From Alcanivorax sp. 24 (lineage in GTDB: Bacteria > Pseudomonadota > Gammaproteobacteria > Pseudomonadales > Alcanivoracaceae), in the NCBI RefSeq assembly GCF_004360225.1, contig NZ_SNUA01000007.1:62001-126000 (forward strand): a stretch of DNA of 64,000 bases. The letters run 5' to 3'. Below, in pieces: positions 9,384 through 25,220 of this stretch; the first letter of the stretch is position 1; each line of letters opens with the position of its first letter. The translations under genes and the position numbers were made by a program. The notes beneath the pieces were generated by a model. That model had not been told where the DNA came from. It was given only the letters and a program-made list of their open reading frames with translations, and searched no databases.

Positions 9384-9731
9384 ATGGCGGGCGCCAATTC
9401 CACTTACGAGATCCATGTGTTCATTGGTTGTGCCCTCGCTGTTGGTGACGAGACGGAAGAGGGCGGGTTGGGGGCCTGGCAGCCGCTGATGGTGTTCTCC
9501 CGCCAATATTATTTGTGCGGATACCATGATTACCCGCGTATGGAACGGGTGGCCAGGGAACACGGGTGGGTCGAGGTGCTCATTGCCCGGGACGGCGTAC
9601 TCATCGAAAGCCAACTGCCGCGGGCCCGGCCGGCGGTACGGGACGCCTTCGAGAAGGCGTTGGCGACGGGAGGGGCGGTGCTGGTGTACTCGGAGTGGCA
9701 GGGTAGTGGCTTGCCTCTGTCCCGGGAGTAA
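9384..9731 (+). CDS. Conserved-looking hypothetical protein, 115 residues
   Basis: I do not recognise this family. The protein starts MAGANSTYEIHVF, has no signal peptide or membrane segment, and looks like a compact alpha/beta fold, with YEIHVFIGCALAV and WVEVLIARDGVLI as likely strands and a helix in VRDAFEKALATGG. AGAGGGGGGATGAGCA precedes the ATG. Codon use resembles neighbouring genes. It ends 7 bp before the stop of the convergent response regulator gene, and no partner gene suggests a function. Confidence 0.65.
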   Translation: MAGANSTYEIHVFIGCALAVGDETEEGGLGAWQPLMVFSRQYYLCGYHDYPRMERVAREHGWVEVLIARDGVLIESQLPRARPAVRDAFEKALATGGAVLVYSEWQGSGLPLSRE

Positions 9732-9737
9732 TCATTC

Positions 9738-10466
9738 CTAACCGGCGGAGGGGTCGGCCTCTTGCAGGCGGTAACCGTAGCCGTAAACGGCATTGAGCTG
9801 CCAGCCGTGGTCCGGGGTCAGTCCCAGCTTGCGGCGGACACGGTAAATATGTACATCCAGAGTGCGTGACGAGAATTGTTCGTCTTTACCCCAGACATAC
9901 TCGTATAAATACGCCCGGGCCAATGGGCGGCCAAGATTGCTGAACAGCAGGAAGGCCAGCCGGTATTCCTGATGCGTCAGCTTGACCGATTGGCCGTCGC
10001 GATGCAGGGTCTGACGATTCACGTCAAACACGATGTTGCCGTGGCTGGGGTCTTCCTCTCTCCCTTTTTCCACACTCAAGGGGCCATTGCGGCGGCGGAG
10101 CACGGCGATGGCCCGGGCCTTCAGTTCCCGCGCCCGGAAGGGCTTGTTAATGAAATCCTCAGCACCGCTGGTCAGGGCCTCGACCACATCCTGTTCACTA
10201 TTGCGCACGGTGAGCATGATCACCGGAGGGGGCGATTCCAGGTAGGAAGTGAACCAGGTCAGTACTTCCACCCCGCTGCCGTCCGGCAATTCCCAATCGA
10301 GAATGGCCAGATCGAAGGTGTGGCGTTTGGTCGCCTGGATCAATTCCTTGCAAGTGGAGAAGGTGGAAATCTTCAGTGTGACTTTATGTCGTCCCCATGG
10401 GCCAGTCAGGGCCTGACTGACCTGGGCCAGTACGGCAGGCTCGTCATCCAGTATGGCGATATGCAT
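9738..10466 (-). CDS. OmpR/PhoB-type response regulator
   Basis: Two-component transcription factor of 242 residues. The receiver domain has D7-D8, phosphoacceptor D57 in LAILDWELPDGSG, T86 and K108 in INKPF. The C-terminal winged helix (about 150-235) includes LTHQEYRLAFLLFSNLGR and SRTLDVHIYRVRRKL. Transcribed divergently from the fimbrial operon across a 619-bp upstream region. The CHASE2 histidine kinase at 17268, at the far end of the fimbrial genes, is the likely partner (inference from position), so the regulator plausibly controls these pili. Confidence 0.9.
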   Translation of the reverse strand: MHIAILDDEPAVLAQVSQALTGPWGRHKVTLKISTFSTCKELIQATKRHTFDLAILDWELPDGSGVEVLTWFTSYLESPPPVIMLTVRNSEQDVVEALTSGAEDFINKPFRARELKARAIAVLRRRNGPLSVEKGREEDPSHGNIVFDVNRQTLHRDGQSVKLTHQEYRLAFLLFSNLGRPLARAYLYEYVWGKDEQFSSRTLDVHIYRVRRKLGLTPDHGWQLNAVYGYGYRLQEADPSAG

Positions 10467-10559
10467 GGTCCCCGTTCCCTCTCAAGTGACACGGTGCATT
10501 GTTCTACGAAGTCATAGTTTCCTGATGGTGCGGCTGAAATTCCGGCACGCCTGTACGAA

Positions 10560-10870
10560 TTGTTATCCGGTTCGGGCGGTATCGGGAAATCAAAGAGCTA
10601 TTTTTATTAATGTTTTGCATCCTCGCCCTTTTGTCGCGCTTTGCGGCAGGGCGGGATCAGGCGTGTTCAGGGCGCCTGATCCCGGGCGGAATGTTAGGGC
10701 GGTGAACCGGCAAAGTCATCCACGATAAGGCAAAAATTGTTAACGCATTTCGTGCTTATTTAAATAAATGAAGACAATTTGTCTAATGTGAAAGTATTAA
10801 ATAAATTAAAGGTATTGGTTATTTGGTCGTACTTTTGGTGGAAAATATAAAATAACTGTCAACGGAATAT
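10560..10870. promoter_or_regulatory. AT-rich upstream region of the fimbrial operon
   Basis: The 619-bp gap between the divergent regulator and the pilin gene contains, mainly at 10735-10865, an A+T-rich tract with runs such as TTATTTAAATAAAT and AAATATAAAATAAC that contrast with the surrounding GC-rich DNA. Such tracts often carry promoters and are bound by nucleoid silencers such as H-NS or MvaT-like proteins. No single promoter could be fixed with confidence. The rest (10870-11085) is GC-rich leader with a GGCCGC-AAG-GCCGCGG hairpin. Confidence 0.5.
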
Positions 10871-11085
10871 GAACAATGGTTTCGGACTGTTGTTTGTTTG
10901 TTGGCTCCCCTCCATTCTCCTCCCCCGCAGTCTACCGATCACGTCACATAATCGCATTTCTTGGCGGCATCTGATACCGGGCCCAGTGGGCAAGGTGCCA
11001 GGGCGGTAGGCCGCAAGGCCGCGGAACGGCTCCCGAACAGGCGTGCCGGTCCCAAAACACGTTATCAGGATGGGATGCATCTGTT

Positions 11086-11640
11086 ATGAAAATGAATAAA
11101 ACCGCTATTGCTCTGGCCGTTTTCGGTTTGGCTGGTGCGGGTTCCGCTCTCGCCGCGGACGGCACCATTACCTTCAACGGCAAAATCACCGACCAGACCT
11201 GTGATATCACCACCCCGGGTGGCACCGATTTCACCGTGACTCTGCCGACCGTGTCCGCTCAGACGCTGGCCGCCGCCGGTGAAGTCGCGGGCCGTACGCC
11301 TTTCGCCATCAACCTGTCCAACTGCTCCGCCGGGCAAGTGGCGACCTATTTCGAACCGGGTCCCACCGTGGATTACAACACCGGTCGTCTGAACAACCAG
11401 ATCGACGCCGCCAGCAATGGCGCCACCAATGTTCAAATCCAACTGTTGGGTGAGAACAACGGCTTCTTGCCGGTGCTGGCCGCGGGTGCCAACGGTGCGC
11501 AAACCAACTCCCAGTGGGTAACGGTTGCCAACGACGGTGACAGCGCTGATCTGAACTACTACGCCGAGTACTACGCTACCGCCGCCGCCGGCGCTGGCGA
11601 CGTCTCCACCAGCGTTCAGTACACCATTATCTATCAGTAA
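11086..11640 (+). CDS. Type 1-like major fimbrial subunit
   Basis: A 184-residue pilin of the chaperone-usher class. Signal peptide MKMNKTAIALAVFGLAGAGS followed by ALA cleavage before ADGTITFNG. Two cysteines (in DQTCDITT and LSNCSAG) can form the conserved pilin disulfide, and the C-terminus VQYTIIYQ has the penultimate-tyrosine pattern recognised by the chaperone. The N-terminal GTITFNGKITDQTC segment is the donor-strand region. It is first in the operon, and a GC hairpin after its stop would favour higher pilin than chaperone/usher expression. Confidence 0.93.
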   Translation: MKMNKTAIALAVFGLAGAGSALAADGTITFNGKITDQTCDITTPGGTDFTVTLPTVSAQTLAAAGEVAGRTPFAINLSNCSAGQVATYFEPGPTVDYNTGRLNNQIDAASNGATNVQIQLLGENNGFLPVLAAGANGAQTNSQWVTVANDGDSADLNYYAEYYATAAAGAGDVSTSVQYTIIYQ

Positions 11641-11656
11641 TCCTCATGGCTTCCGC

Positions 11657-11674
11657 GGGCCGGCTTGCCGGCCC
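11657..11674 (+). terminator. Intercistronic hairpin after the pilin gene
   Basis: GGGCCGGC-TT-GCCGGCCC forms a perfect 8-bp stem with a 2-nt gap (in practice a 4-nt or larger loop) 17 bp after the pilin stop. It lacks a T-run, so it is more likely an attenuator or mRNA-stabilising hairpin that sets the pilin to chaperone ratio than a full terminator. Confidence 0.6.
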
Positions 11675-11717
11675 CGGACTCCTTATCGTCTGTCTTTCCA
11701 GGTTTCGGGTGGTGGCT

Positions 11718-12461
11718 ATGAAGCGCTTTTCTCTTTGTCTGTTGTCATTCGCATTGCTGGTCACGGGCGTTGCCGCGCAGGCCGCCGTGGTGATCGGCGG
11801 GACCCGGGTGGTCTACCCTGGTGGTGACCGCGAGGTCTCGGTGCAGTTGACCAACGACGGCGAAAACCCGGCTCTGGTGCAAGTATGGATCGACGCCGGT
11901 GACGCCGACGCCGCTCCCGAACAAAGCGATGTGCCTTTCATCGTGCTGCCGCCGATTTCCCGCGTGGAAGCCGGCAGTGGTCAGGTTCTTCGAATTTCCT
12001 TTACCGGTGGCAAGACGCCGCCGGAAGACCGTGAGTCCGTGTATTGGCTGAATGTGCTCGACATTCCGCCGGCGCCGAAGGCCGAAGAGGGGATTCCCCA
12101 GAATTTCCTGCAGTTGGCGGTTCGCTCGCGCATCAAGTTGTTTTACCGGCCCAAGGGGTTGAGCGGTAAAGCCAACGACGCTCCGGAAAAACTGCAGTGG
12201 TACCTGTCCCGTTCCGGGGGGCGAGCGGTACTCAAAGCGAAAAACCCCACGCCTTACCACGTCACCGTCAGCCGCCTGGAAATTCTCCGTGGAGAAAGTG
12301 CGCTGGTACCGGTGCCCGTGGACCAGGGCATGATCGCCCCCGGCGGCAGTCTGGAGTTCCCCTTGCCCGCTAACGCGCCCGCCACGATTGGCCAGGTGCG
12401 TATGACCACCATCAATGATTTTGGCGGTCGGGTGGCGCGGGATATGCCGGTGGGTCGTTAG
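11718..12461 (+). CDS. Periplasmic fimbrial chaperone (PapD/FimC family)
   Basis: 247 residues from the ATG at 11718, which opens a clear signal peptide (MKRFSLCLLSFALLVTGVAA, then QA). An upstream in-frame ATG at 11646 would put the signal far inside and is unlikely. The two Ig-like domains show GTRVVYPGGDREVSVQLTN, the PFIVLPPISRVEAGSGQVLRI stretch, and RSRIKLFYRPKGL, which marks the domain junction. The conserved basic residues that anchor the pilin C-terminus (R in TRVVYP and K in IKLFYRP) are present. It folds pilins and delivers them to the usher encoded next. Confidence 0.93.
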   Translation: MKRFSLCLLSFALLVTGVAAQAAVVIGGTRVVYPGGDREVSVQLTNDGENPALVQVWIDAGDADAAPEQSDVPFIVLPPISRVEAGSGQVLRISFTGGKTPPEDRESVYWLNVLDIPPAPKAEEGIPQNFLQLAVRSRIKLFYRPKGLSGKANDAPEKLQWYLSRSGGRAVLKAKNPTPYHVTVSRLEILRGESALVPVPVDQGMIAPGGSLEFPLPANAPATIGQVRMTTINDFGGRVARDMPVGR

Positions 12462-12502
12462 TAAAAACGCCTTAACAAAAAACCATGGACGCGGGGTGTC
12501 TC

Positions 12503-15052
12503 ATGAATCAAAAGCGCGTTGTCTCACGCCGGAAGACCAGTCTGAGTGCCGGTACCCAACTGCTGGGCGGATTGGCGCTGATGGCGTGGACGCCGGTTGT
12601 GTTGGCTCAATCCGAGCCCCAGGTGGCGGCGGCTTCCTTTAATAGCGATTTCCTTCGCGGTGCCGCCAAGGATATGGACGTTTCCCGTTATGCCCAGGGC
12701 AACCCGACTCTGGCGGGTGATTACTATCTGGACGTCTACGTCAACGGCTCCTGGAAAGGTCGTAATGAACTGGCGTTTCGGGCCGCTCCCGGCGAGATCA
12801 ACGCGCACACCTGTTTTACCTTGAGCATGCTGTCCGGCTATGGCGTGGACGTCAGCACCATTGACGGGGTGGATGAAACACTGGGAGATGAATGTCGCTC
12901 GCTGGAAGGTTGGCTGCCCGGTGCCCTGGCTCGCTTTGACAGCAGCAACATGCGTCTGGAGATCAGTATCCCGCAAGCCAATATGCGTCGCAGTGCGCGT
13001 GGCTATGTGGATCCGGCGTTCTGGGATCCGGGCATCAATGCCGGTTTCCTGAGCTACAACTTCAACGCGCTGCGCACCGAGAGCCATTACGGCGGTAATG
13101 ATCGTACCTACGACAATGCCTACCTGATGCTCAATAGCGGCATCAATATTGGCGCCTGGCAATTGCGGCACGACTCCAATGTGTCTCGCCGTGACGGGGA
13201 GGGCACTGACTGGCAGAGCACCGCCACCTATCTGCGCCGGCCGATTCCGTCGATCCGCGGCATGGTGACGGTGGGGGACGCCTACACCGAAGGCAATCTG
13301 TTCGATTCCATGGGGTTCCGCGGCGCCCGGCTGGCGTCCGATGATCGCATGTTGCCGGATTCGCTGCGCGGCTATGCGCCCACCGTCCGCGGCGTGGCGG
13401 AAAGCAACGCGTTGGTGGAAGTGCGCCAGAACGGCCAGGTGATTTACCAGGCCACGGTGCCGCCGGGGCCATTCGTCATTGATGACTTGTACCCCACCGG
13501 CTACGGCGGTGACCTGGAGGTTACCGTTACCGAAGCGGACGGCCGTATCCGCCGCTTCAGTCTGCCCTTCGCCTCCGTGCCGCAGATGTTGCGGCCGGGC
13601 ATCTCCCGATACAGCGTCACCGCCGGCAAGGTACGTGAAACCAGCCTGGATGATGATCCCTGGCTGATGCAGGCCACCTACCAGAAGGGCCTGACCAACT
13701 GGCTGACCGGTTACACCGGCGCCACCTTCAGTGATGACTACCAGGCTTATCTGGCCGGTGTCGCGGTGGGGACGCCCGTTGGCGCCTTCTCCGCCGATGT
13801 CACCCACGCCCGTACCGGCTTCGATCGCTATGGCGATCGCAATGGCCAGAGCTACAAACTGGGTTACAGCAAATTCATGCCCGATACCGGCACCAATGTG
13901 ACGGTGGCGGCCTATCGCTATTCCACCTCCGGCTATCTGGGATTGCGCGATGCCATCATCGCCCATGACTACGAAGACCGTCAGTTGGGTTTCGACGCGG
14001 TGCGTCGTCAGCGCAGTGAGTTCCAGCTCACCGTGAACCAGACTCTGGGCGCCGGTTTTGGGGCGATGTACTTCACCGGTTCCGTTCGTGATTACTGGAA
14101 AAGCGAAGGGGAAACCACGCAGTACCAGGTGGGTTACAACAACAACTATGGGCCTTTCCATTACGGCTTCTCGGCGCTGAAGACCGAGGATGAGTTTGGT
14201 CGTGACGATACCCAGTACAACTTCAACTTCTCGGTGCCGCTGGATAACGTGGCCGGCAACGCCAGTCTGATCGGCTCCGGGACCATGCGTGACAGTGCCT
14301 ACGAAAGCAGCCGTCTGGGTGTCTCCGGCAGTGCCGGCGTGGACGGCAACATGACCTATAACGTGGCGGTCAGCCACCAGGATCAGAGTGGCGCCACCGG
14401 TGAACTCAGCGGTGAATACCGGGCGCCCTATGCCACGCTGCGGGCCTCTTACAGTCATAACGACAACTTTACTCAGATGGGGGCCGGCGTCAGCGGCAGC
14501 ATGGTGGCGCATGGCGGCGGTGTAACGCTGACCCCTCAGCGCGGTGAAACCATGGTGTTGGTGGAAGCGCCGGCCGCCGCCGGGGCGCGCGTGACCAACA
14601 TGTCAGGCGTGCGCATCGACAAGCGGGGTTACGCGGTGGTGCCCTATGTTTCGCCTTACCGGCTGAATTCGGTGACGCTGGATCCGAACGATATGTCCAC
14701 CGAAGTGGAACTGAAGACCAGCAGTCAGCAGGTGGCGCCCTATGCGGGTGCCGTGGCCAAGCTCACCTTTGATACCGTCAGTGGTCAGGCGCTGCTGATC
14801 AAGGCCAAAAGAGTGGATGGTGAACCGGTTCCGTTCGGCGCCGAGGTGTACGACGAGGCTGGCCAGCCAGTGGGTCTGGTGGGCCAGAGCGGCCGGGTCT
14901 ATCTGCGCACGGAAAAAGAGAGCGGCCGTCTGAGCGTCAAGTGGGGCGAGGAAGCGAACCAGAGCTGCGACATCGACTATCGCGTGCCGGAGTCCGACGA
15001 GGACGCAAGCGCGGCCCGCGCCTACCATCATCTGGAGGCCCGTTGTGAATAA
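12503..15052 (+). CDS. Outer-membrane fimbrial usher (FimD/PapC family)
   Basis: 849 residues from the ATG at 12503, chosen because the signal peptide (to about residue 36, ending VVLAQ) then has normal length; an ATG at 12485 would add six residues. Domains in order are the N-terminal chaperone-binding domain (FNSDFLRGAAKDMDVSRY), a 24-strand pore with middle domain (GYAPTVRGVAESNALVEVRQNG), and C-terminal domains ending with a cysteine pair in NQSCDIDY and LEARCE. It assembles and secretes the pilus. The stop overlaps the next gene by 8 bp. Confidence 0.95.
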   Translation: MNQKRVVSRRKTSLSAGTQLLGGLALMAWTPVVLAQSEPQVAAASFNSDFLRGAAKDMDVSRYAQGNPTLAGDYYLDVYVNGSWKGRNELAFRAAPGEINAHTCFTLSMLSGYGVDVSTIDGVDETLGDECRSLEGWLPGALARFDSSNMRLEISIPQANMRRSARGYVDPAFWDPGINAGFLSYNFNALRTESHYGGNDRTYDNAYLMLNSGINIGAWQLRHDSNVSRRDGEGTDWQSTATYLRRPIPSIRGMVTVGDAYTEGNLFDSMGFRGARLASDDRMLPDSLRGYAPTVRGVAESNALVEVRQNGQVIYQATVPPGPFVIDDLYPTGYGGDLEVTVTEADGRIRRFSLPFASVPQMLRPGISRYSVTAGKVRETSLDDDPWLMQATYQKGLTNWLTGYTGATFSDDYQAYLAGVAVGTPVGAFSADVTHARTGFDRYGDRNGQSYKLGYSKFMPDTGTNVTVAAYRYSTSGYLGLRDAIIAHDYEDRQLGFDAVRRQRSEFQLTVNQTLGAGFGAMYFTGSVRDYWKSEGETTQYQVGYNNNYGPFHYGFSALKTEDEFGRDDTQYNFNFSVPLDNVAGNASLIGSGTMRDSAYESSRLGVSGSAGVDGNMTYNVAVSHQDQSGATGELSGEYRAPYATLRASYSHNDNFTQMGAGVSGSMVAHGGGVTLTPQRGETMVLVEAPAAAGARVTNMSGVRIDKRGYAVVPYVSPYRLNSVTLDPNDMSTEVELKTSSQQVAPYAGAVAKLTFDTVSGQALLIKAKRVDGEPVPFGAEVYDEAGQPVGLVGQSGRVYLRTEKESGRLSVKWGEEANQSCDIDYRVPESDEDASAARAYHHLEARCE

Positions 15053-16043
15053 AGTGTCCATACCTAATTGGTTCGTTGCCCCGATTGTGGTCCTGGTATT
15101 GTCGATGGTGTCCATTTCGGCCAGAGCGGCCTGTTATGTCGAAACCAGTGTCCAGAATATCAATATGCGAATGGGGCAGGTGACGATTACACCGAATGTG
15201 CCGGTCGGTACGGTTCTGGCGATGCAAGAGTTCCCCATTGGCGCCAGAGAAGATGCGGTGCGCTGTTATGGAGGGGGCGGATATATGCGTGGGCGGACCT
15301 TGATTGGTAATCCCAGCAGCTATGATCCGAATATCTATACGACCCAGGTGGATGGTATCGGGATTCGTCTTTCACGGCGCATCGCAGGCCTTAGCCAGAC
15401 CGTGGTATATCCGCATGATTTGCGTCTTAACAGCTCAAGGGGCAGGTTGTCCGAAGGGTATTTTCGCGTAGAAATTATCAAGATCGCTAATCAAACCGGG
15501 TCAGGCACGCTGGCTCCCGGCCAGTACACAACTTACTACGCGGATGGGTCTGGCTCAGGGACTCCGATCCTCACCTCGTACCTGGACGCCAGCGCGATCA
15601 CCATCGTCTCTTCCGCCTGCGAGGTGGATATGGGGTCCCGCAATATCGCCGTGGACTTTGGCACGGTGTCCCGTTCCGTTTTTTCCGGCGTTGGCAGTAC
15701 CAATACGGAGAAGGAATTCCAGGTGGGCTTGTCCTGTGTCGGCCCCAGCAATGGCCAGGACACGGTGAAGCTGTCTTTCGGGTACAGCCCGGATCCCAGT
15801 GGCGCGGCTGGTGTCATCAAGATTGATGAGGGTTCCGAGGCCGCCAGTGGCGTGGGCATTCAATTGCTCGATAACCGCACCTCCACGCCCATCGCCAATG
15901 GCGATCGTGTCGAACTGGGTACGGTGACGCCTGGGGACCATCAATTCCAACTGCCGCTGAAGGCCCGTTATTACCAGACCGCGCCCATCGTCAACGGCGG
16001 TGAAACCCGGGCGATCGCCACATTTACCATCGAATACAACTGA
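15045..16043 (+). CDS. Fimbrial tip/adhesin-type subunit
   Basis: 332 residues from a GTG that overlaps the usher end, so translation is probably coupled. A signal peptide ends near SARAACYV. The C-terminal half (about 185-332) is a pilin domain: CEVDMGSRNIAVDFGTVS, a second cysteine in GLSCVG, and the terminal ATFTIEYN with penultimate tyrosine region. The N-terminal half (about 30-180) is a separate domain, as in two-domain adhesins such as FimH or PapG, but I do not recognise its ligand. Last structural gene of the operon. Confidence 0.85.
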   Translation: MNKVSIPNWFVAPIVVLVLSMVSISARAACYVETSVQNINMRMGQVTITPNVPVGTVLAMQEFPIGAREDAVRCYGGGGYMRGRTLIGNPSSYDPNIYTTQVDGIGIRLSRRIAGLSQTVVYPHDLRLNSSRGRLSEGYFRVEIIKIANQTGSGTLAPGQYTTYYADGSGSGTPILTSYLDASAITIVSSACEVDMGSRNIAVDFGTVSRSVFSGVGSTNTEKEFQVGLSCVGPSNGQDTVKLSFGYSPDPSGAAGVIKIDEGSEAASGVGIQLLDNRTSTPIANGDRVELGTVTPGDHQFQLPLKARYYQTAPIVNGGETRAIATFTIEYN

Positions 16044-16199
16044 CTCCAACGCCAACAGCGAGGGAACGCGCCGACTCGGCCCGAGGACAGGGCCTGCTGA
16101 ATAGGGTGGACCATGCAAGGCGTGACAAAAAATTGCCGGAAGCAATTTTCAGCATCGCTTCGGCGACGGCCCGGAGGGTGGCCGCCACGGATCGTGGCC

Positions 16200-17225
16200 A
16201 TGACACAAGGCGTGATCGGCGGTCTGCTTGGCGGGCTGCTGCTCGCCGGCACCGCGATGGCCGCGCCGCCGCCGGCCAATCCACAGTCCCCATCATCGCC
16301 GGGATACCATATCGTGCGTCCCGGCGATACGCTTTGGAATATCGCCGAAGACTATCTGGGGGACGCTCGGGCCTGGCGCCGTGTTCGTGACCTCAATCAC
16401 CTGTCCGACCCTTACCGTTTGCAACCCGATACCAAGTTGATACTGGAGGAGAACAGCCCTCTAAGTATCGATGTGCTTCACTTGGAAGGTGAGGTCTGGG
16501 CCGAGGGCGTGGATGGTGAGCGTCAACAGCTGTTGACGGGCATGCGACTGGATACAACCCAAGCCGTGGTGACTGGTCCTTTCGCCTTTGTATCCTTGCG
16601 CCTGGAAGACGGTTCCCAGGTGGTTTTGCCATCCAGCAGCCGGGTTCGATTCGCCAAGGAGCATGATCGGGGTATTGTCCGCGTCCGCCTGGAGAGCGGC
16701 GCGGTGGAGTCCAAAGTCACCTCGCGTCCCGGCGAAGAGCACTATCAGGTGGAAACCCCGGTGGGTATTATCGGCGTGCGTGGTACCCATTTTCGTGTAC
16801 GGGAACAGACCGGTGCCGCCACCACCAGCGTGCTGCGCGGAGCGGTGGCGATCAGTCACGATGGCCACGCTCAGCAGCAGGTGCGTGAAGGTGAGGGCGG
16901 GCGCCTGGACAGCGATGGCCGGTTGATGCGTGTCGCGTTGTTGCCCGCGCCCACCTTGCTGCCCGACTGGCGTGGCGCGGGCGGGGTTCTGCACGCCCGG
17001 GTTGAATCGTTACCGGGAGCCGTCCTGTATCGGCTGCAAATGTCCAGGGACAGTGATTTCATCGAACTGGTACGTGAAGCGGTATCGGATGATGGTGAGT
17101 TTAAAGTCGAGGATGTGCCCGCGGGGGCGTACCATGTCCGCTTGTCGGCGGTCGATGCCAATGGCATTGAAGGGCGCGAAGCCCATCATGTGTTTTTCCT
17201 GCGCGGGGTGGGTGCCCACCGCTAG
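16200..17225 (+). CDS. LysM and FecR domain exported protein
   Basis: 341 residues from the ATG at 16200, which starts a good signal peptide (MTQGVIGGLLGGLLLAGTAMA). An ATG at 16113 is in frame and would add 29 basic residues. A LysM domain follows (YHIVRPGDTLWNIAEDYLGD, peptidoglycan binding), then a FecR-like domain (about 125-250; VRLESGAVESKV, VETPVGIIGVRGTHFRV), then a fibronectin-like tail (LQMSRDSDF, YHVRLSAVDANGIEG). Similar proteins are found beside CHASE2 sensors. It probably passes a cell-envelope signal to the next gene's kinase; that is an inference from adjacency. Confidence 0.85.
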   Translation: MTQGVIGGLLGGLLLAGTAMAAPPPANPQSPSSPGYHIVRPGDTLWNIAEDYLGDARAWRRVRDLNHLSDPYRLQPDTKLILEENSPLSIDVLHLEGEVWAEGVDGERQQLLTGMRLDTTQAVVTGPFAFVSLRLEDGSQVVLPSSSRVRFAKEHDRGIVRVRLESGAVESKVTSRPGEEHYQVETPVGIIGVRGTHFRVREQTGAATTSVLRGAVAISHDGHAQQQVREGEGGRLDSDGRLMRVALLPAPTLLPDWRGAGGVLHARVESLPGAVLYRLQMSRDSDFIELVREAVSDDGEFKVEDVPAGAYHVRLSAVDANGIEGREAHHVFFLRGVGAHR

Positions 17226-17267
17226 GCCCCCTTGCTTTTCGACTCTCCTAGCCAGCAAGCTGTCCTG

Positions 17268-19604
17268 ATGCCCATATTGACCAGCGAAGCATTATTTCGC
17301 CGCCTGTTTTTCCAGTGGGGCGTGCTGTTACTGATCGCTCTGGCCGCCACCGGCTGGATGGCGAGCCGTGACTTCGTACAGCTCAATGCGTCGGTCTATG
17401 ACCATATGATTGCCTGGTCGGATCGGCCGGTGAACGACGATATTCTCATTGTCGCCGTGGACGACCGCAGCCTTCGTGAGATCGGGCGCTGGCCCTGGAG
17501 CCGGCTGGTGCACGCGGCACTGTTGGACCGCTTGCATGAGGCCGGTGCCCAGGCCGTGATGATGGATATCCTTTTTCTGGAAGCGGAAGGTGACGGCAAG
17601 GCGGACCAGCGCCTGGGCGCCGCCATGGCCCGTGCCGGTAATGTCTATGTGCCCCTGGCGCGGGCTCCGATGTCGACGCCGGGGGCGCCCCCCGTTGTTT
17701 ATCCGCCTTTGCCTGACATCGCTGACAATGCCGCCGGCATCGGACACATTAATGTGGAAGCGGATATGGATGGCAAGGTGCGGCGCCTGTATCTGTGCGA
17801 GGGCGTTATTGATCAGGTGGTACCGCATCTTACCTGGGCGCTGTTCGATTCCCTGGCGAGCAAGGGGTTGGCCACGGGAATGGCGATGCCGGGCGAGGAA
17901 ACCCAGTCGACACACAACACTCCTTCCTGGCACCGGGATCATCTGGTCCGGGTGCCGTTTCGGGGGACGCCCGGGGCGTTTCCGCGAGTGTCCTACAGCA
18001 GTGTGTTGCTCGGCGAGGTTCCGGACGAGCTGCTTAAAGACAGGGTCGTGCTGGTTGGCGCCACCGCCGCCGGTCTGGGAGATCGCTATGCGGTACCGGT
18101 ATCGGGCCGCATGGGCACCATGGCCGGGGTGGAGATCCAGGCTAATCTGCTCAATGGCCTGATGGACGGCTATGTTATTACCGAGCTGGATAAAGCCACG
18201 AGGATATTGCTGTCCATGGTGCCGGTGCTGGCCTTGATGATCGCCTTGCTGGTGTCGCGCTTGCGTTATGTCCACGTCCTGATGGCGTTGATGGCGACAC
18301 TGACCATGGTGGCATGTGCTCTGGCTTTGCGGTTGGGAGTCTGGTGGCCTCCGGCGGCATCCTTAACCGGACTGGTATTGTTCTATCTGCTATGGCAATG
18401 GCGCAGTCAGAGTGTGATCCTGCGTTGGTTCAGCAGTGAGATCGAGTCGCTGAGCAGTGAGCCGAACATGGTGCCGGAGGCGGGCAGTGCTTCCCGCATG
18501 CATTGGGGCAGTACGCTGCATCGCCGGGTCATGGCCCTGGAAGCCGGTGTGCAACAGCTGCGTGCTTCTCGCCGGTTCGTCACCGACATGCTGGACTCTC
18601 TGCCAGTGGTGACGTTTCTGGTGGATGGCGAGGCCAAGGTGAAGGCCGCCAATCGAAAAGCCCGCTGGCTGGTGGGAAATCCCGCGGGGGTGGAGAGTTG
18701 GAAGTTGCGGGATGCGTTGCTGACGGTGGTGCCGGCGGATGCAGTGCCGGTGTTCCTCTCCGAGGGCGGGCGTTTCGCCGATGTGCGTCACTGGCACGGC
18801 CAGGCCTTTTTTGATCGCTGGGGGAATCACTATCGTATGGAAGTGGCGCCGCTGTGGACGGCGATTACCCTGGACGCGGGTTGGCTGATCAGTCTGGTGG
18901 ATATGACCGGCGAACGCCGCGCGGCGGAGCAACGGGCTCACATGTTGCGGTTCCTGTCCCATGATATGAAGGCACCGCAGGCCAGCATGCTGGCCCTGCT
19001 TGATATGCAGAACGGTACCGCGGCGTTGCCAGAGCGGGAATTTCATGCACGTCTGGAGCGACAGGTACGATCCGCCCTGGACATGATCGAGGACTTCATG
19101 CAATTGGCCAAGGTGGAATTCGGTGCCTTGGATTTCCGGGAGGTGCTGCTGGCCAATATCGCCATGGATGCGCTGGATCGGGCCTGGCCCTTGGCTCAGG
19201 CCAAAGGTATCCAGTTGGAAAGCGATAACCTTGACGATGATGGCGGGCCGATTTGGGGTGATCAGGGGTTCCTGGTACGGGCGGTGTTCAATCTGCTTGA
19301 GAACGCGATCAAATACAGCCCGCCCCGAAGCGTGGTGACGTTGTCGGTTTTGCAAAGCGGCGACAGAGTGATTTGTCAGGTCAGCGACCAGGGGATCGGT
19401 ATCGCCAGCCACGACATTCCCTACCTGTTTGAAAGCTATCGCCGCTTCGATGCCGATAACATGGCCACCGGTCTGGGGTTGGGACTGGCCTTCGTGAAGA
19501 CGGTGATGGACAAGCACAATGGTGAGATCCAATGCCGGAGCGTGGTGCGGCAAGGCTCCACGTTTACCTTGAATTTTCCCGCCTACTCGGACGCCGGCGA
19601 CTAG
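17268..19604 (+). CDS. CHASE2 sensor histidine kinase
   Basis: 778 residues from the ATG at 17268; a TTG at 17232 is a weaker alternative. An N-terminal membrane segment is followed by an extracytoplasmic CHASE2 domain (about 40-310; ILIVAVDDRSLREIGRWPWSR, DRVVLVGATAAGLGD), then a cluster of three membrane helices (ILLSMVPVLALMIALLV onward), a PAS-like segment, the H-box LRFLSHDMKAPQ near residue 560, and a HATPase with NAIKYSP, DQGIGI and GLGLGLAFVK. Its likely partner is the OmpR-type regulator at 9738. The stop codon touches a long hairpin. Confidence 0.92.
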   Translation: MPILTSEALFRRLFFQWGVLLLIALAATGWMASRDFVQLNASVYDHMIAWSDRPVNDDILIVAVDDRSLREIGRWPWSRLVHAALLDRLHEAGAQAVMMDILFLEAEGDGKADQRLGAAMARAGNVYVPLARAPMSTPGAPPVVYPPLPDIADNAAGIGHINVEADMDGKVRRLYLCEGVIDQVVPHLTWALFDSLASKGLATGMAMPGEETQSTHNTPSWHRDHLVRVPFRGTPGAFPRVSYSSVLLGEVPDELLKDRVVLVGATAAGLGDRYAVPVSGRMGTMAGVEIQANLLNGLMDGYVITELDKATRILLSMVPVLALMIALLVSRLRYVHVLMALMATLTMVACALALRLGVWWPPAASLTGLVLFYLLWQWRSQSVILRWFSSEIESLSSEPNMVPEAGSASRMHWGSTLHRRVMALEAGVQQLRASRRFVTDMLDSLPVVTFLVDGEAKVKAANRKARWLVGNPAGVESWKLRDALLTVVPADAVPVFLSEGGRFADVRHWHGQAFFDRWGNHYRMEVAPLWTAITLDAGWLISLVDMTGERRAAEQRAHMLRFLSHDMKAPQASMLALLDMQNGTAALPEREFHARLERQVRSALDMIEDFMQLAKVEFGALDFREVLLANIAMDALDRAWPLAQAKGIQLESDNLDDDGGPIWGDQGFLVRAVFNLLENAIKYSPPRSVVTLSVLQSGDRVICQVSDQGIGIASHDIPYLFESYRRFDADNMATGLGLGLAFVKTVMDKHNGEIQCRSVVRQGSTFTLNFPAYSDAGD

Positions 19605-20435: not shown

Positions 20436-22232
20436 ATGGATGTCCAGCTTCTAACCTATATTTTCGTGGGCGCGTCGTTCGCGCTCTATATCGGCATTGC
20501 CATCTGGTCGCGGGCCGGCTCCACCAAGGAGTTCTACGTGGCTGGTGGCGGTGTCTCTCCGGTGGCCAATGGTGCCGCCACGGCGGCGGACTGGATGTCG
20601 GCGGCGTCTTTTATTTCCATGGCGGGGATTATCGCCTACGCCGGCTATGATGCTTCCGTATACCTGATGGGCTGGACTGGCGGCTATGTGCTCCTGGCGA
20701 TGCTCCTGGCGCCCTACCTGCGCAAGTTCGGCAAGTTTACCGTGCCGGATTTCATCGGCGACCGTTACTACTCCAATGTGGCGAGAACGGTGGCGGTGAT
20801 CTGTGTGATATTCGTATCGTTTACCTACGTGGCCGGGCAGATGCGCGGCGTTGGTATCGTGTTCGCCCGCTTCCTGGAAGTGGACGTGAACATCGGCGTG
20901 GTCATCGGCATGGCCATCGTCTTCTGCTATGCCGTGCTGGGTGGCATGAAAGGCATTACCTACACCCAGGTCGCGCAATACTGCGTTCTGATTTTCGCGT
21001 TCCTGGTACCAGCGGTGTTCTTGTCGATCATGATGACGGGGCACGTTTTGCCACAAACCGGTTTCGGCGCCACCGTGTTGGATGCTTCCGGTAATGATAC
21101 CGGAGTCTATCTCCTGGAGCGTCTCGATCAGGTGGTTCAGGACCTTGGTTTCGGTGCCTATACCGACGGTACCAAATCCACTATTGATGTGTTCTTTATC
21201 ACCGCCGCATTGATGTGCGGGACCGCCGGTCTGCCTCACGTTATCGTGCGTTTCTTCACCGTGCCACGTGTGCGTGATGCCCGCATCAGTGCCGGCTGGG
21301 CCCTGTTCTTCATCGCTCTGTTGTACACCTCGGCGCCGGCGGTGGGGGCCTTCGCTCGTACCAATCTGATCGAAACCGTAAACGGCACCGAGTACAAGGC
21401 GTTGCCCGGCTGGTTCTACAACTGGGAAAACTCCGGTTTGATCGGCTGGATGGACAAGAACAACGACGGCCGTGTGCAGATGGCCGCGGGCGCGCCGTTC
21501 GAGGGTAAGCCGGTTTTCTCTGGCTCCCGCGAGGAGGCCGCTGGTCCGCAAGGGGAGCGTGTGCTGACCAATACCCCCACGGATAACGCCTCCGAGGTTT
21601 ATATTGACCGTGACATTATCGTTCTGGCCAACCCGGAAATCGGTAATTTGCCGGCCTGGGTGATTGCCCTGGTGGCGGCGGGGGGCGTAGCGGCGGCCTT
21701 GTCGACGGCGGCGGGGTTGCTGCTGGTGATCTCGTCGGCTATTTCCCATGACCTTTTGAAGAAAACCCTGGTGCCCGGGATCAGCGAGAAACAGGAACTG
21801 CTGGCGGCGCGCCTCGCGGCCATCGTCGCCATCATCATCGCCGGGTACTTTGGCATTAATCCACCGGGTTTCGTGGCCCAGGTGGTGGCCTTTGCCTTCG
21901 GGTTGGCGGCGGCGAGTTTCTTCCCGGTCATTCTGATGGGCATCTTCTACCGCCGCATGAACAAGGAAGGGGCGATTGCCGGCATGCTGGTGGGGCTGGC
22001 CTTCACCTTCGGCTATATCGTCTACTTCAAGTTCATCTCGCCGGAGCTGAACACCGCCGATAATTGGCTGTTTGGTGTCTCCCCCGAGGGGATTGGTACT
22101 GTCGGTATGATTCTTAACTTCGTGGTGGCTTTCGCGGTTTCCCGGGTTACCCAGGCGCCGCCGGAACATATCCAGCATATTGTCGAGGACATCCGGGTGC
22201 CCCGTGGCGCCGGCGCGGCGGTACAACACTGA
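20436..22232 (+). CDS. Sodium:solute symporter, VC_2705/ActP-like subfamily
   Basis: 598-residue inner-membrane transporter of the SSS family with about 13 hydrophobic segments. FYVAGGGVSPVANGAATAADWMSAASF, GGMKGITYTQVAQY (the SSS signature region) and ALSTAAGLLLVISSAISHD are recognisable (given here in part). A hydrophilic insertion of about 70 residues (near 330-395) carries a DKNNDGRVQM stretch resembling an EF-hand-like calcium loop. Likely substrate is acetate or a related monocarboxylate, inferred from subfamily and from the downstream CrbS-like kinase. GAGGATAAGAG precedes the ATG. Confidence 0.92.
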   Translation: MDVQLLTYIFVGASFALYIGIAIWSRAGSTKEFYVAGGGVSPVANGAATAADWMSAASFISMAGIIAYAGYDASVYLMGWTGGYVLLAMLLAPYLRKFGKFTVPDFIGDRYYSNVARTVAVICVIFVSFTYVAGQMRGVGIVFARFLEVDVNIGVVIGMAIVFCYAVLGGMKGITYTQVAQYCVLIFAFLVPAVFLSIMMTGHVLPQTGFGATVLDASGNDTGVYLLERLDQVVQDLGFGAYTDGTKSTIDVFFITAALMCGTAGLPHVIVRFFTVPRVRDARISAGWALFFIALLYTSAPAVGAFARTNLIETVNGTEYKALPGWFYNWENSGLIGWMDKNNDGRVQMAAGAPFEGKPVFSGSREEAAGPQGERVLTNTPTDNASEVYIDRDIIVLANPEIGNLPAWVIALVAAGGVAAALSTAAGLLLVISSAISHDLLKKTLVPGISEKQELLAARLAAIVAIIIAGYFGINPPGFVAQVVAFAFGLAAASFFPVILMGIFYRRMNKEGAIAGMLVGLAFTFGYIVYFKFISPELNTADNWLFGVSPEGIGTVGMILNFVVAFAVSRVTQAPPEHIQHIVEDIRVPRGAGAAVQH

Positions 22233-22256
22233 TCACTGGACCAGGAGTAGATAAAT

Positions 22257-22287
22257 GGGGGCGAGGTGCGATGCGCCTTGCCCCTTT
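22257..22287 (+). terminator. Rho-independent-like terminator after the symporter
   Basis: GGGGCGAGGTGCG and CGCCTTGCCCC pair (with two G-T pairs) around a short loop and are followed by TTTCTC, 24 bp after the symporter stop. It could separate the transporter from the regulatory genes or act as an attenuator before them. Its position also argues against a start for the next gene at 22266. Confidence 0.6.
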
Positions 22288-22329
22288 CTCATAGGAAAAG
22301 GGCACAGGGGCCGGCTATCAGGAAAAGAT

Positions 22330-22367
22330 CATCGGATAAGCCCATCCCAGGGTTGGCTTATCCGATG
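22330..22367. promoter_or_regulatory. Perfect 13-bp inverted repeat in the DUF294 gene leader
   Basis: CATCGGATAAGCC at 22330-22342 is exactly inverted as GGCTTATCCGATG at 22355-22367, with a 12-nt spacer. It lies between the terminator and the probable start of the cNMP-CBS-DUF294 gene. It is not one of the dispersed repeat families here, so an operator or a regulatory mRNA hairpin is possible. Confidence 0.6.
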
Positions 22368-22397
22368 GTTTATCCGGCAGTCTTGTTCGATGAAGGA

Positions 22398-24239
22398 ATG
22401 GGATTCCGGGAGGACAGGGGCAAGGTGGATCTGAATTTCGAGCAGTTGCCGTTCTCCCTGTTGGGTGAACATGGCCGTGAACGTTTGGGCCAGGCGGTGG
22501 AAATGACCTTCCTGGCCGCGGGCACCGTGATTCTCGACGCCGGTGACGCCACCGATTATGTCTATGTGGTTCACAAAGGCGTGGTGGTGGAGCTGGATCC
22601 CCATGCTCCGGAAGCGTCCGCCCGGATCGCGGTCTATACCGATGATGATCTGTTTGGCGCCATTACCGTCTTCAATGGCACCAGCCGTTATCGGTTCAAG
22701 GTGGAGGAAGAAGCGCTTTGCTATTTGATTCCGGCGGAGCTGTTTCAGTCCTTGTGCAATGAGGAACCTGAGTTCGCGGACTACTTTCAGGCAAGATTGG
22801 CGGCGAAAAGCCAGTTACTCGCGGAGCGGCGGGAAGGTGGTGTCACTCTGGCCGGTTTCATGTTGGCGCGGGTCAGTGAGTGCATGCGGGAGCCGGTGCT
22901 GTTGCCCGCGGACGGCACCATCGGTGATGCGGCCACGGAGCTGACCCGGCATGGCGTGGACAGCTTGCTGCTGGAAGCCCATGGTCGGGTCGGAGTGATC
23001 ACCAAAACCGACTTGCTGCGTGGCTTGGTGGAAGAGGAACTGACGCCGCGAAGTCCGGTGTTGGGGTTGGCCTCGTTTTCTCTGGTAACCGTTGATCTGG
23101 ATGAGTTTCTGTTCGCCGCTCTGGTACGCATGACCCGACACCAGGTGACCCGGGTGGTGGTGATGGCACAGGGGCGCGCCCTGGGCGTGGTGGAGCTACC
23201 GGATGTGCTTAGTTTCTTTTCCAGCCGCTCCTACGTGGTGGGGCTGGAAGTGGAACGGGCGGAGGACATGGATGCCCTGGTCTTGGCCAGCGCTCGTTTG
23301 CCGGAGCTGGTACGGGCGCTGATGGCACAGGGCGTGCGCATGCGCTTCGCCATGGAACTGATGGCGGCGCTCAATGGCCGCATCATCGCCCGTGCCTTTG
23401 AATTCCTGGTGCCCCAGACGCGGGCGACGCAGTGCTGCCTGATGGTATTTGGCAGTGAGGGTCGCGGTGAACAGATACTGAAGACCGATCAGGATAACGG
23501 TCTGATTCTGGAAGAAGAGCTGAACTGGCCGGAACTGCGCGAGCTGTCCCGCGCCTTCACCGACACACTGGTGCGTCTGGGGTACCCCCGTTGTCCTGGT
23601 GGCATCATGGTGTCGAATCCGGAATGGGTCGGCACCTTGGCGGATTGGCGCCGGCGTATTCGGCGCTGGGTGGGGCAGGGCGATGACGCCGCAATGATGC
23701 GATTGGCGATTCTGGCCGATGCTCATCCGGTGGCGGGGCAGGTGCGTTTGGTGGAACGACTGCGGGACCTGTTATTCGAGCACTGCAGTCACGACGAAAT
23801 TCTGCTGTCCCAATTTGCCCGTCCGATTCTGCATTTCGCCACGCCTTTGACCTTGTTCGGTACTCTCAAGACCCGCGACCGGACCCTGGATATCAAGAAG
23901 CGCGGTGTTTTCCCGCTGGTTCATGGGGTGCGGGCGTTGAGCCTGCGTTATCGCATACGGGAAACCAACACCCTGGCCCGGCTGACGCGCCTGGTCGATG
24001 CCGGTCATTTGGAAGCGGAAATGGCCGATGATCTCGGTGGCGCGTTGTCGGTGTTTTCCGAGTTGCGACTGCGCCAGCAGATGAGATCCATGTCCGAGCC
24101 CGGAGCCGCGTTGGATTCCGGCAATCAGGTCAACGTCGCCGGCTTGTCGTCCCTGGAGCGGGATATGCTGCGCGACGCCCTGCATGTGGTGAATGACTTC
24201 AAGAAGAGCCTGAGTCGGCGTTTCCATCTTGAGTACTGA
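22398..24239 (+). CDS. cNMP-binding / CBS / DUF294 putative nucleotidyltransferase
   Basis: About 613 residues. A cyclic-nucleotide-binding-like domain comes first (TVILDAGDATDYVYVVHKG, DDLFGAITVF), then a CBS pair (MREPVLLPADGTIGDAATEL, GVITKTDLLRG), then a DUF294 nucleotidyltransferase-like domain with FGSEGRGEQILKTDQDNGL, matching the GSxxRxEQ-DQD pattern, and a C-terminal helical DUF294_C region. The substrate of this family is unknown; linkage with acetate symporters and CrbS-type kinases is common. The start is uncertain: GTG 22266 and ATG 22365 lie in hairpins, and GTG 22425 is also possible. Confidence 0.85.
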   Translation: MGFREDRGKVDLNFEQLPFSLLGEHGRERLGQAVEMTFLAAGTVILDAGDATDYVYVVHKGVVVELDPHAPEASARIAVYTDDDLFGAITVFNGTSRYRFKVEEEALCYLIPAELFQSLCNEEPEFADYFQARLAAKSQLLAERREGGVTLAGFMLARVSECMREPVLLPADGTIGDAATELTRHGVDSLLLEAHGRVGVITKTDLLRGLVEEELTPRSPVLGLASFSLVTVDLDEFLFAALVRMTRHQVTRVVVMAQGRALGVVELPDVLSFFSSRSYVVGLEVERAEDMDALVLASARLPELVRALMAQGVRMRFAMELMAALNGRIIARAFEFLVPQTRATQCCLMVFGSEGRGEQILKTDQDNGLILEEELNWPELRELSRAFTDTLVRLGYPRCPGGIMVSNPEWVGTLADWRRRIRRWVGQGDDAAMMRLAILADAHPVAGQVRLVERLRDLLFEHCSHDEILLSQFARPILHFATPLTLFGTLKTRDRTLDIKKRGVFPLVHGVRALSLRYRIRETNTLARLTRLVDAGHLEAEMADDLGGALSVFSELRLRQQMRSMSEPGAALDSGNQVNVAGLSSLERDMLRDALHVVNDFKKSLSRRFHLEY

Positions 24240-24256
24240 ACCAGGAGTACCGAACC

Positions 24257-24862
24257 ATGCATACATTGAAGCGTATCTGGCAGCGCCACCGGCACGGCGA
24301 TGGTCCTTTCTCTCATATGTTCGAGTTACCCTCGGACCCGGATGAGCTGGTGGCGATTGACTGTGAGACCACCGGACTGGATGTGCGCCGTGCCGAACTG
24401 GTATCCGTGGCGGCGGTGCCGATCAGTCATGGGCGGGTGAAAGCGGGCGCGGCGCTGGATCTGCACGTTCAGGCGCCGGCATCCCTGGATGCCACGTCGA
24501 TTCGCATTCACCGGTTGCGGCCGCTGGATCTGCGTGAGGGTGGTGAGGTTCGCCGGGTCCTGGAGCAACTGCTCGCCTTTATTGATAACCGGCCGCTGGT
24601 GGGCTGGTGTCTGAGCTTCGATATGGCGATTCTGAATCGTTACACCAAAGCCCTGTTCGGTTTTGAGCTGCCCAACCGCCGTATCGAGCTGAGCAGCCTG
24701 TACCAGAAACGTCTGCGTCATCGCCAGCCAGAACAGGTGGCGGATTTGCGTTTTGAGCAGGTGGCGGCGGATCTGGGTGTGCCGGTAATGGGGCGGCACA
24801 GCGCGCGCGGTGATGCCACCACGGCCGCGCTGATGTACACCCGGCTGGTGGAAATAGCGTGA
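24257..24862 (+). CDS. DnaQ-like 3'-5' exonuclease
   Basis: 201 residues of the DEDDh exonuclease fold. Exo I AIDCETTGLD (catalytic D and E near 34-36), Exo II LVGWCLSFDMAILNR, and Exo III GRHSARGDATTAALM with the H-x4-D pair are all present. It resembles the epsilon-like proteins encoded beside DUF294 genes rather than true DnaQ, and has no polymerase-clamp motif that I can identify. It starts 17 bp after the DUF294 stop, with a CAGGAG Shine-Dalgarno, so the two are cotranscribed. The DNA or RNA target is unknown. Confidence 0.9.
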   Translation: MHTLKRIWQRHRHGDGPFSHMFELPSDPDELVAIDCETTGLDVRRAELVSVAAVPISHGRVKAGAALDLHVQAPASLDATSIRIHRLRPLDLREGGEVRRVLEQLLAFIDNRPLVGWCLSFDMAILNRYTKALFGFELPNRRIELSSLYQKRLRHRQPEQVADLRFEQVAADLGVPVMGRHSARGDATTAALMYTRLVEIA

Positions 24863-24889
24863 ACAGGCCCTGGCAAGGAGTGGTAAACC

Positions 24890-25111
24890 ATGGTGTATTT
24901 GGAAACGGTATTGTTGGTTCTGGGGCTGCTGGTCGTTCTGGGTACCTACGCGCACTATTGGCGTCGCACCGGAGACTGGCGCGGCGTGGCCCGTTTCTGG
25001 GCGCGCGGTATGACGCTGTCAGTGGCGGAGTTCAAGGCGCAGCGCGCGGGTGTATTGTTATTATTGCTGGCGGTGGTGATTCGCTTCGCGCGTGCCTTGA
25101 TGCTGTGGTGA
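24890..25111 (+). CDS. Small membrane protein of unknown function
   Basis: 73 residues with two hydrophobic segments (VLLVLGLLVVLGTYA and GVLLLLLAVVIRFA) separated by a basic loop YWRRTGDWRGVARFWARG. CAAGGAG lies 8 bases before the ATG. I do not recognise a family. Its place between the exonuclease and the SSS-kinase gene suggests membership of the same regulon. Confidence 0.7.
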   Translation: MVYLETVLLVLGLLVVLGTYAHYWRRTGDWRGVARFWARGMTLSVAEFKAQRAGVLLLLLAVVIRFARALMLW

Positions 25112-25156
25112 GATGGAGCCCTCCGCCAGGGTATCTGCGCTCATGAGCCGCGATTG

Positions 25157-25190
25157 GCGTGTAAGCGTGCCGGCGTGTTGCGTGTAAGCG
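25157..25190. repeat. CGTGTTGCGTG-family repeat, short
   Basis: GGCGTGTAAGCGTGCCGG is followed by CGTGTTGCGTGTAAGCG, so GCGTGTAAGCG occurs twice directly. It is shorter than the family members at 8819 and 41669 and lies 31 bp before the hybrid kinase gene. Confidence 0.6.
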
Positions 25191-25220
25191 TATCGGGCTT
25201 GCACACGGTTCGGAGGCAAG

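Follow-up and report, generated by a model that had tools for sequence, protein, structure and literature searches.

The 64,000-nucleotide window analysed here, positions 62,001 to 126,000 of contig NZ_SNUA01000007.1 of Alcanivorax sp. 24, carries an operon for a chaperone-usher adhesive pilus that probably has its own dedicated sensor, of the BiofilmReg/RowR type, by which it would be controlled. As the original prediction had described, and as Pfam matches bear out, an OmpR-type response regulator on one side and a LysM-FecR protein plus a CHASE2 histidine kinase on the other bracket the genes for the pilin, chaperone, usher and tip adhesin. The chaperone-usher parts are complete on Pfam, with a pilin, a PapD-like chaperone, a three-part usher and a two-domain tip adhesin, the last of which finds its PDB matches in Abp2D, Abp1D and the 'Fimbria adhesin protein' 3u4k. 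The Pfam scan covered ten window proteins, and all matches of the seven genes lie above the gathering score except that for HisKA (24.8 bits against 26.9). The H-box of the kinase is intact despite this score, the H, N, G1 and G2 motifs are retained in all six pilus-linked copies of the kinase, and the phospho-acceptor of the regulator is kept (LAILDWELPDGS). The genes on the plus strand are tightly spaced, with intergenic gaps that are short or overlapping, and a terminator scan, which showed no excess over shuffles, placed none on that strand between two pilus or sensor genes.

How would such a locus operate? The kinase would phosphorylate the divergent OmpR-type regulator, which in its phosphorylated form would act on the shared 619-bp intergenic region and switch on the pilus operon. 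The sensor genes, which close the run of pilus genes, would be switched on too, giving rise to a feedback loop. We infer co-transcription, phosphotransfer, binding of the regulator to the promoter, the direction of regulation and the feedback, and on the same footing local control of the pilus by the sensor is likely. More speculatively, the LysM domain may anchor the PupR/FecR-like domain of its protein on peptidoglycan, and that domain may then report the state of the surface, the pilus or the envelope to the CHASE2 domain; the original prediction had likewise suggested a possible report on envelope status while the pilus is being secreted.

The arrangement is conserved well beyond the window. 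A kinase search in 46 genomes of the family Alcanivoracaceae gave a match at an expect value (E) <= 1e-30 in 43 of them, and close full-length relatives are present in six: the window's own genome (G000), G018, G019 and G029, where identity to the window kinase is 94-100%, G020 (54%) and G031 (46%). Known by name among the carriers are Alloalcanivorax xenomutans JC109, A. balearicus MACL04 and A. gelatiniphagus; a contig scan with two very specific peptide patterns, which is not a census, gave 24 loci. In all six carriers, the window included, the seven genes occur in identical order and orientation, despite a divergence of the kinase to 44% and despite the differing surroundings in G031, where the genes beyond the kinase are not those of the window and the contig ends close to the regulator. 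Between the window and G031 identity is 84% for the pilin, 59% for the usher, 54% for the regulator, 52% for the tip protein, 50% for the chaperone, 44% for the kinase and 35% for the LysM-FecR protein. Of the seven proteins it is thus the pilin that changes least between the genera (window 11086-11640 against L037 1524-2006 in G031); pilins are often the variable part of a pilus.

Common descent of the linked parts is seen in trees that included the ordinary copies and were made by a quick method with no bootstrap. A single clade unites the six linked copies in the trees of the regulator (support 99), the kinase (100) and the LysM-FecR protein (99), with G031 outermost where resolved, and the linked ushers, in five rows, also form one clade (99); the deeper order of the regulator tree is unsure owing to its long branches. 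On these trees the linked paralogue has one origin, and, given the clades of linked copies together with the different surroundings in G031, the seven-gene unit moved, or was inherited, as a whole. Five of 13 Alloalcanivorax genomes have the locus, flanked by ispA on one side and a sodium-solute symporter gene on the other, with an interval of ~11-12 kb. The remaining eight are without it: in seven the ispA-symporter interval is 2.3-4.0 kb, and in G023 the two genes are on different contigs. Six of the eight locus-free sites were read.

Away from this paralogue the sensor is usually found on its own. An ordinary CHASE2 kinase is present in all 43 matching family genomes, and in the six carriers it is a second CHASE2 kinase. 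Among 19 ordinary family loci (L038-L046, L097-L106) the regulator is adjacent in all 19, a LysM-FecR protein is recognised in seven, and pilus genes are found in none. In a class-wide search 26 of 369 genomes matched the kinase profile at E <= 1e-70, mostly over the CHASE2 part only. The 26 class loci (L071-L096), which come from 25 genomes other than the window's and of which some are cut short by contig ends, have the regulator in 18, the LysM-FecR protein in 23, both in 17 and pilus genes in none; an H-box is recognised in 14 of the 17 with both, by a pattern that may miss some. The regulator, LysM-FecR protein and kinase therefore do belong together, as the original prediction had proposed, since elsewhere they make up one operon (17/26 class loci), and their union with a chaperone-usher pilus, which it had called non-standard, is indeed unusual. 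It had also stated that it would be refuted if kinase and FecR genes stood beside the regulator without pili in most relatives: this is so of the trio in general, which is a published biofilm regulator, and it is not so of this paralogue, pilus-linked in six of six copies. The idea of the trio as pilus-specific was rejected, with recognised pilus genes in 0/45 of the family and class loci outside the six; beyond these 45, the Fulvimonas locus L053 has pilus genes and L050, L051 and L052 do not. In one class locus (L096 7256-10614, in G210) a LysM-FecR protein is followed by a CHASE2-GGDEF protein, which on its predicted domains joins the same input to a cyclic-di-GMP type of output.

The linked copies also differ from their ordinary counterparts at the positions of the recognition helix and the H-box helix, which in these families govern the choice of DNA and of partner respectively. 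The recognition helix of the regulator reads TLDVHIYRVRRKL in the six linked copies, that of G020 departing slightly; the ordinary regulators of the family have TVDVHISRIRRSL or something close to it, while the H-box helix of the kinase reads FLSHDMKAPQASMLALLDMQ in the linked copy against FLSHDLRSPMVSVLALVGKM in the ordinary paralogue of the same genome. Such differences from the ordinary paralogue in both helices are what a separate regulator-kinase pair with its own target would be expected to show. In the kinase at 17268-19604, and in the ordinary CHASE2 kinases with a recognised H-box, residue 4 after the phospho-histidine is A or S. The E/DxxT/N phosphatase motif has T or N at that position (PMC3842833), and the phosphatase activity of these kinases may, to judge from this residue, be weak or different.

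The trio corresponds to the BiofilmReg operon of Burkholderia contaminans (PMC5192318). There, biofilm was lost on insertion into the regulator gene, an event said to silence the operon. Relatives of BiofilmReg are described in Burkholderiales, with a two-gene form in Pseudomonas aeruginosa (PMC5192318). Among 20 suppressors of wrinkly biofilm mutants, six suppression events were traced to a regulator of the same type, Bcen2424_1436, whose operon includes the kinase Bcen2424_1438, with CHASE2 and PAS domains (PMC4324302); this regulator has been named RowR (PMC8552884). A role of BiofilmReg in biofilm is reported for Burkholderia only. What BiofilmReg/RowR and the window share is an OmpR-type regulator, an exported LysM-FecR protein and a CHASE2 histidine kinase in one locus. 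The published genes are contiguous on one strand, with the regulator first and no pilus genes, whereas in the window the regulator is divergent and four pilus genes intervene, making the window locus a variant rather than a plain member of BiofilmReg. A PAS domain, which the majority of published members have, though not every one (PMC5192318), was not found by Pfam in the window kinase.

Other known systems share single features with the locus. The cupD pilus cluster of P. aeruginosa PA14 was probably acquired with, and is controlled by, pvrSR/rcsCB, and is thus likewise a chaperone-usher cluster with linked two-component genes (PMC3842833). It differs in having Rcs/Pvr-type sensors and an EAL-motif regulator, neither of which Pfam finds in the window locus, and in that no LysM-FecR or CHASE2 protein is mentioned in the available text (PMC3842833). 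The Abp1/Abp2 pili of Acinetobacter and the MrkD-type pili share the two-domain tip adhesin of the MrkD/Abp kind. To our knowledge no CHASE2 sensor is linked to either. Searches of the open-licence literature yielded no report of a CHASE2/LysM-FecR sensor joined to a chaperone-usher pilus, and neither FecR nor histidine kinase occurs in the available part of a review of fimbrial regulation (PMC9820224). The components are known; the combination of this sensor with a pilus seems to be undescribed.

Several observations weigh against dedicated control of the pilus by its linked sensor. The trio is usually without pili, and so need not sense pilus assembly. Related ushers outside the six were found in three of 368 other genomes of the class (E <= 1e-150) and four of 40 other genomes of the family (E <= 1e-30). 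Together with the second ushers of carriers, also taken into the comparison, these give 12 loci (L107-L118), and the LysM-FecR/CHASE2 pair stands beside the usher in none of them; in L116 a weak match to LysM alone is present and in L110 a hybrid kinase that is unrelated, and the ushers of L114-L118 are distant (30-38% identity). The usher of G020 (L036 9751-12281) is in two overlapping frames in the assembly, reflecting either a sequencing error or a decaying pilus. With only six carriers, four of them at least 94% alike in the kinase, the independent observations are few. Finally, the control region gives little help: no exact 7-mer recurs as a direct repeat with a period of 10-12 in any of the six intergenic regions, the four 8-mers (two and their complements) shared by three of the six are not convincing, since shuffled sequences gave 0.98 on average and up to 6, and no consensus promoter was found on the plus strand upstream of the pilin, in a scan that did no better than on shuffles.

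The strongest competing explanation, a real possibility and distinctly the lesser one, is that the sensor runs a wider biofilm programme, including matrix polysaccharide and other adhesins, in which the pilus would be one target of several or simply a passenger of the island. In Burkholderia it is biofilm and wrinkly phenotypes that RowR/BiofilmReg affects, with no pilus named in the operon (PMC4324302, PMC8552884, PMC5192318), and the locus, missing as it is from 8/13 Alloalcanivorax genomes, behaves as an accessory island. Yet gene order and tight spacing have been kept across deep divergence, the recognition helix of the regulator is changed, and the ordinary CHASE2 kinase that all six carriers also hold could do the housekeeping.

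An AlphaFold2 model of the LysM-FecR protein built from seven sequences, with a mean predicted local distance difference test score (pLDDT) of 79.7, consists of a LysM part, a PupR/FecR-like signalling domain and a C-terminal domain resembling fibronectin type III. Model residues 117-248 align with the signalling domain of the anti-sigma regulator PupR of P. capeferrum (6ovk; Z 17.9, root-mean-square deviation (rmsd) 2.1, 130 residues, 23% identity). A further anti-sigma factor to which they align is 4m0n, at Z 16.0 and rmsd 2.4 over 130 residues, and the C-terminal domain aligns with fibronectin type III folds at Z 10-11.5. PupR-type domains receive their message from an outer-membrane receptor, and FecR/PupR proteins have an N-terminal anti-sigma domain and a linked extracytoplasmic function (ECF) sigma factor. 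The window protein shares the PupR signalling fold and differs in that a LysM domain replaces the anti-sigma domain, no sigma factor occurs among the ten Pfam-scanned genes, the usher shows no STN or other domain beyond PapC_N, Usher and PapC_C at E <= 0.001, and the output is a kinase. On the model, the PupR/FecR-type domain fits the role of a periplasmic messenger, but proteins of this type are also found with no usher nearby; a direct analogy between usher and PupR receptor is a suggestion only, since the usher is an outer-membrane barrel but has no STN domain. The structure model of the kinase is poor (pLDDT 68.4, predicted TM-score 0.45), and its CHASE2 part has no sequence relative in the PDB.

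TsaP is thought to tie the type IV pilus secretin to peptidoglycan, and the LysM-FecR protein might in the same manner be mainly a structural tie between usher and peptidoglycan instead of a subunit of the sensor. This is favoured by its LysM end, which matches TsaP by sequence (PDB 3jc8, E 2.3e-06), and by the position of its gene directly after that for the tip; it is made unlikely by the 23 of 26 class loci in which this type of protein accompanies CHASE2 proteins with no recognised pilus gene, and by the PupR signalling fold predicted for the central domain. TsaP has a FlgT-like C-terminal domain; the C-terminal domain of the window protein aligns with fibronectin type III folds, and no FlgT-like or TsaP chain is among the 50 fold-match rows for the model, which excludes nothing. 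That the pilus and sensor are chance neighbours, two unrelated systems inserted at a spot whose ispA-symporter interval is variable in the genus, is very improbable given the interleaved order of regulator, pilus, LysM-FecR and kinase, its identity in the other surroundings of another genus (L037), the agreement between the trees of the linked parts, and a crude chance of ~1.7%, in the window's genome, for an usher to lie no more than 10 kb from a CHASE2 gene.

The linkage of a pilus to a sensor finds a parallel in the Fulvimonas family. In Fulvimonas soli (L053/L141) the module that is divergent from a pilus comprises a hybrid kinase, a LysM-FecR protein and a CHASE2 protein that has no kinase part, and CHASE2 proteins of that type occur in 15 of 78 genomes of that family at E <= 1e-40. 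Sixteen loci were read, these 15 and one from Rhodanobacter sp. PCA2, outside the 78, with too little upstream sequence in L127 and L136. Among the 14 readable loci a chaperone-usher pilus stands beside the module in two (L128, L141), a YadA-like trimeric autotransporter in four (L130, L133, L135, L142) and a PATR autotransporter in one (L140), so that pili or autotransporters accompany this separately derived FecR-CHASE2 module in seven. No adhesin was recognised on the side read in the other seven (L129, L131, L132, L134, L137, L138, L139); L131 (G454) has YadA-type matches on the opposite side, ~1.8 kb past the CHASE2 gene. By our own count 24 ushers are present in the 14 genomes, and the usher adjacency is notable, with two observed against 0.066 expected on a crude one-sided estimate that ignores shared descent. 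The autotransporter adjacency is weaker than it looks, as YadA-type stretches are numerous and present in all 14 genomes. The ushers and CHASE2 domains of the Fulvimonas group fall in separate tree clades from those of the window group, although for the ushers this depends on a branch with a value of 92 and for CHASE2 the backbone is unresolved. These separate clades favour two couplings; a joint arrival of pilus and sensor in both the Alcanivoracaceae and Fulvimonas loci was rejected, and the trees suggest that the Fulvimonas-family coupling is apparently a second, separate one. The response regulator of the module is of LuxR type in L127, L128 and L129, those tested, and in L130, L133, L135 and L142, from the Fulvimonas family and Rhodanobacter, a response-regulator gene lies between the large YadA-like autotransporter and the module.

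A broader and rather doubtful extension of these observations is that LysM-FecR/CHASE2 represents a widespread class of adhesion sensor, in which a PupR/FecR messenger pinned to peptidoglycan would be wired to CHASE2 (with a kinase, a separate hybrid kinase or GGDEF) and not to a sigma factor. The adhesin cargo would be exchangeable, being chaperone-usher pili here and in the Fulvimonas relatives and, elsewhere in that family, autotransporters of the trimeric or another type, and the sensor of the window would read the state of the usher or growing pilus.

The features of the locus are collected in Table 1. The start of the kinase is likely to be the ATG at 17268, since G019 has a stop in the stretch before it.

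Table 1. Features of the pilus-sensor locus, in window positions.
Feature	Position	Strand	Basis and remarks
OmpR/PhoB-type response regulator	9738..10466	-	Pfam Response_reg + Trans_reg_C
Divergent intergenic region, 619 bp, presumed control region	10467..11085		GC 0.49 vs ~0.6 in surroundings
Major pilin, FimA/Fimbrial family	11086..11640	+	Pfam
PapD-type periplasmic chaperone	11718..12461	+	Pfam PapD_N + PapD_C; start 11718 likely
Outer-membrane usher	12503..15052	+	Pfam PapC_N, Usher, PapC_C; start 12503 likely
Two-domain tip adhesin: MrkD/Abp-like receptor-binding + pilin domain	15045..16043	+	Pfam MrkDrd + Fimbrial
Exported LysM-FecR protein	16200..17225	+	Pfam LysM + FecR; open reading frame 16113-17225, start 16200 likely
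CHASE2 sensor histidine kinase	17268..19604	+	Pfam CHASE2, HisKA, HATPase_c; open reading frame 17232-19604, ATG 17268 likely

Adjoining the regulator is an open reading frame of 115 amino acids (window 9384-9731) with no Pfam or NCBIfam match, whose product is 81-85% identical in three other carriers and 31-32% identical at the same site in two locus-free genomes. On the far side, window 20436-28685 encodes a symporter, a DUF294/CBS/cNMP protein (Pfam), an exonuclease-like open reading frame and a very long symporter-kinase-like one, genes that we take to resemble a CrbS/CbrA-type acetate-switch neighbourhood. The window's genome also holds a second, unrelated chaperone-usher operon (G000:C4:294415-296673), with no such sensor adjoining.

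The carriers are marine bacteria associated with oil and plastic, and form a small group. A. balearicus, A. dieselolei and A. xenomutans have been reported to colonise plastic rapidly; A. nanhaiticus, A. jadensis and A. venustensis have not. Rapid colonisation is credited to flagella, disturbance of which blocked adhesion, and the authors call for work on fimbriae and pili (PMC12046545). The genomes of that study from JC109 and MACL04 carry the locus, and the match between carriers and colonisers may be due to descent alone, because the colonisers form one clade (PMC12046545). A proteomic table for Alcanivorax sp. 24 lists a 'fimbria adhesin' (2260) (PMC7187450), which could not be tied to this locus. 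The factors recognised by CHASE2 were unknown as of 2016 (PMC5192318), and work on the targets of the Burkholderia system has been called for (PMC4324302). With a sensor and one obvious output in a single natural locus, the questions of the CHASE2 signal and target become testable with a pilin reporter, and the locus itself is a concrete candidate for a role of fimbriae or pili in the colonisation of plastic.

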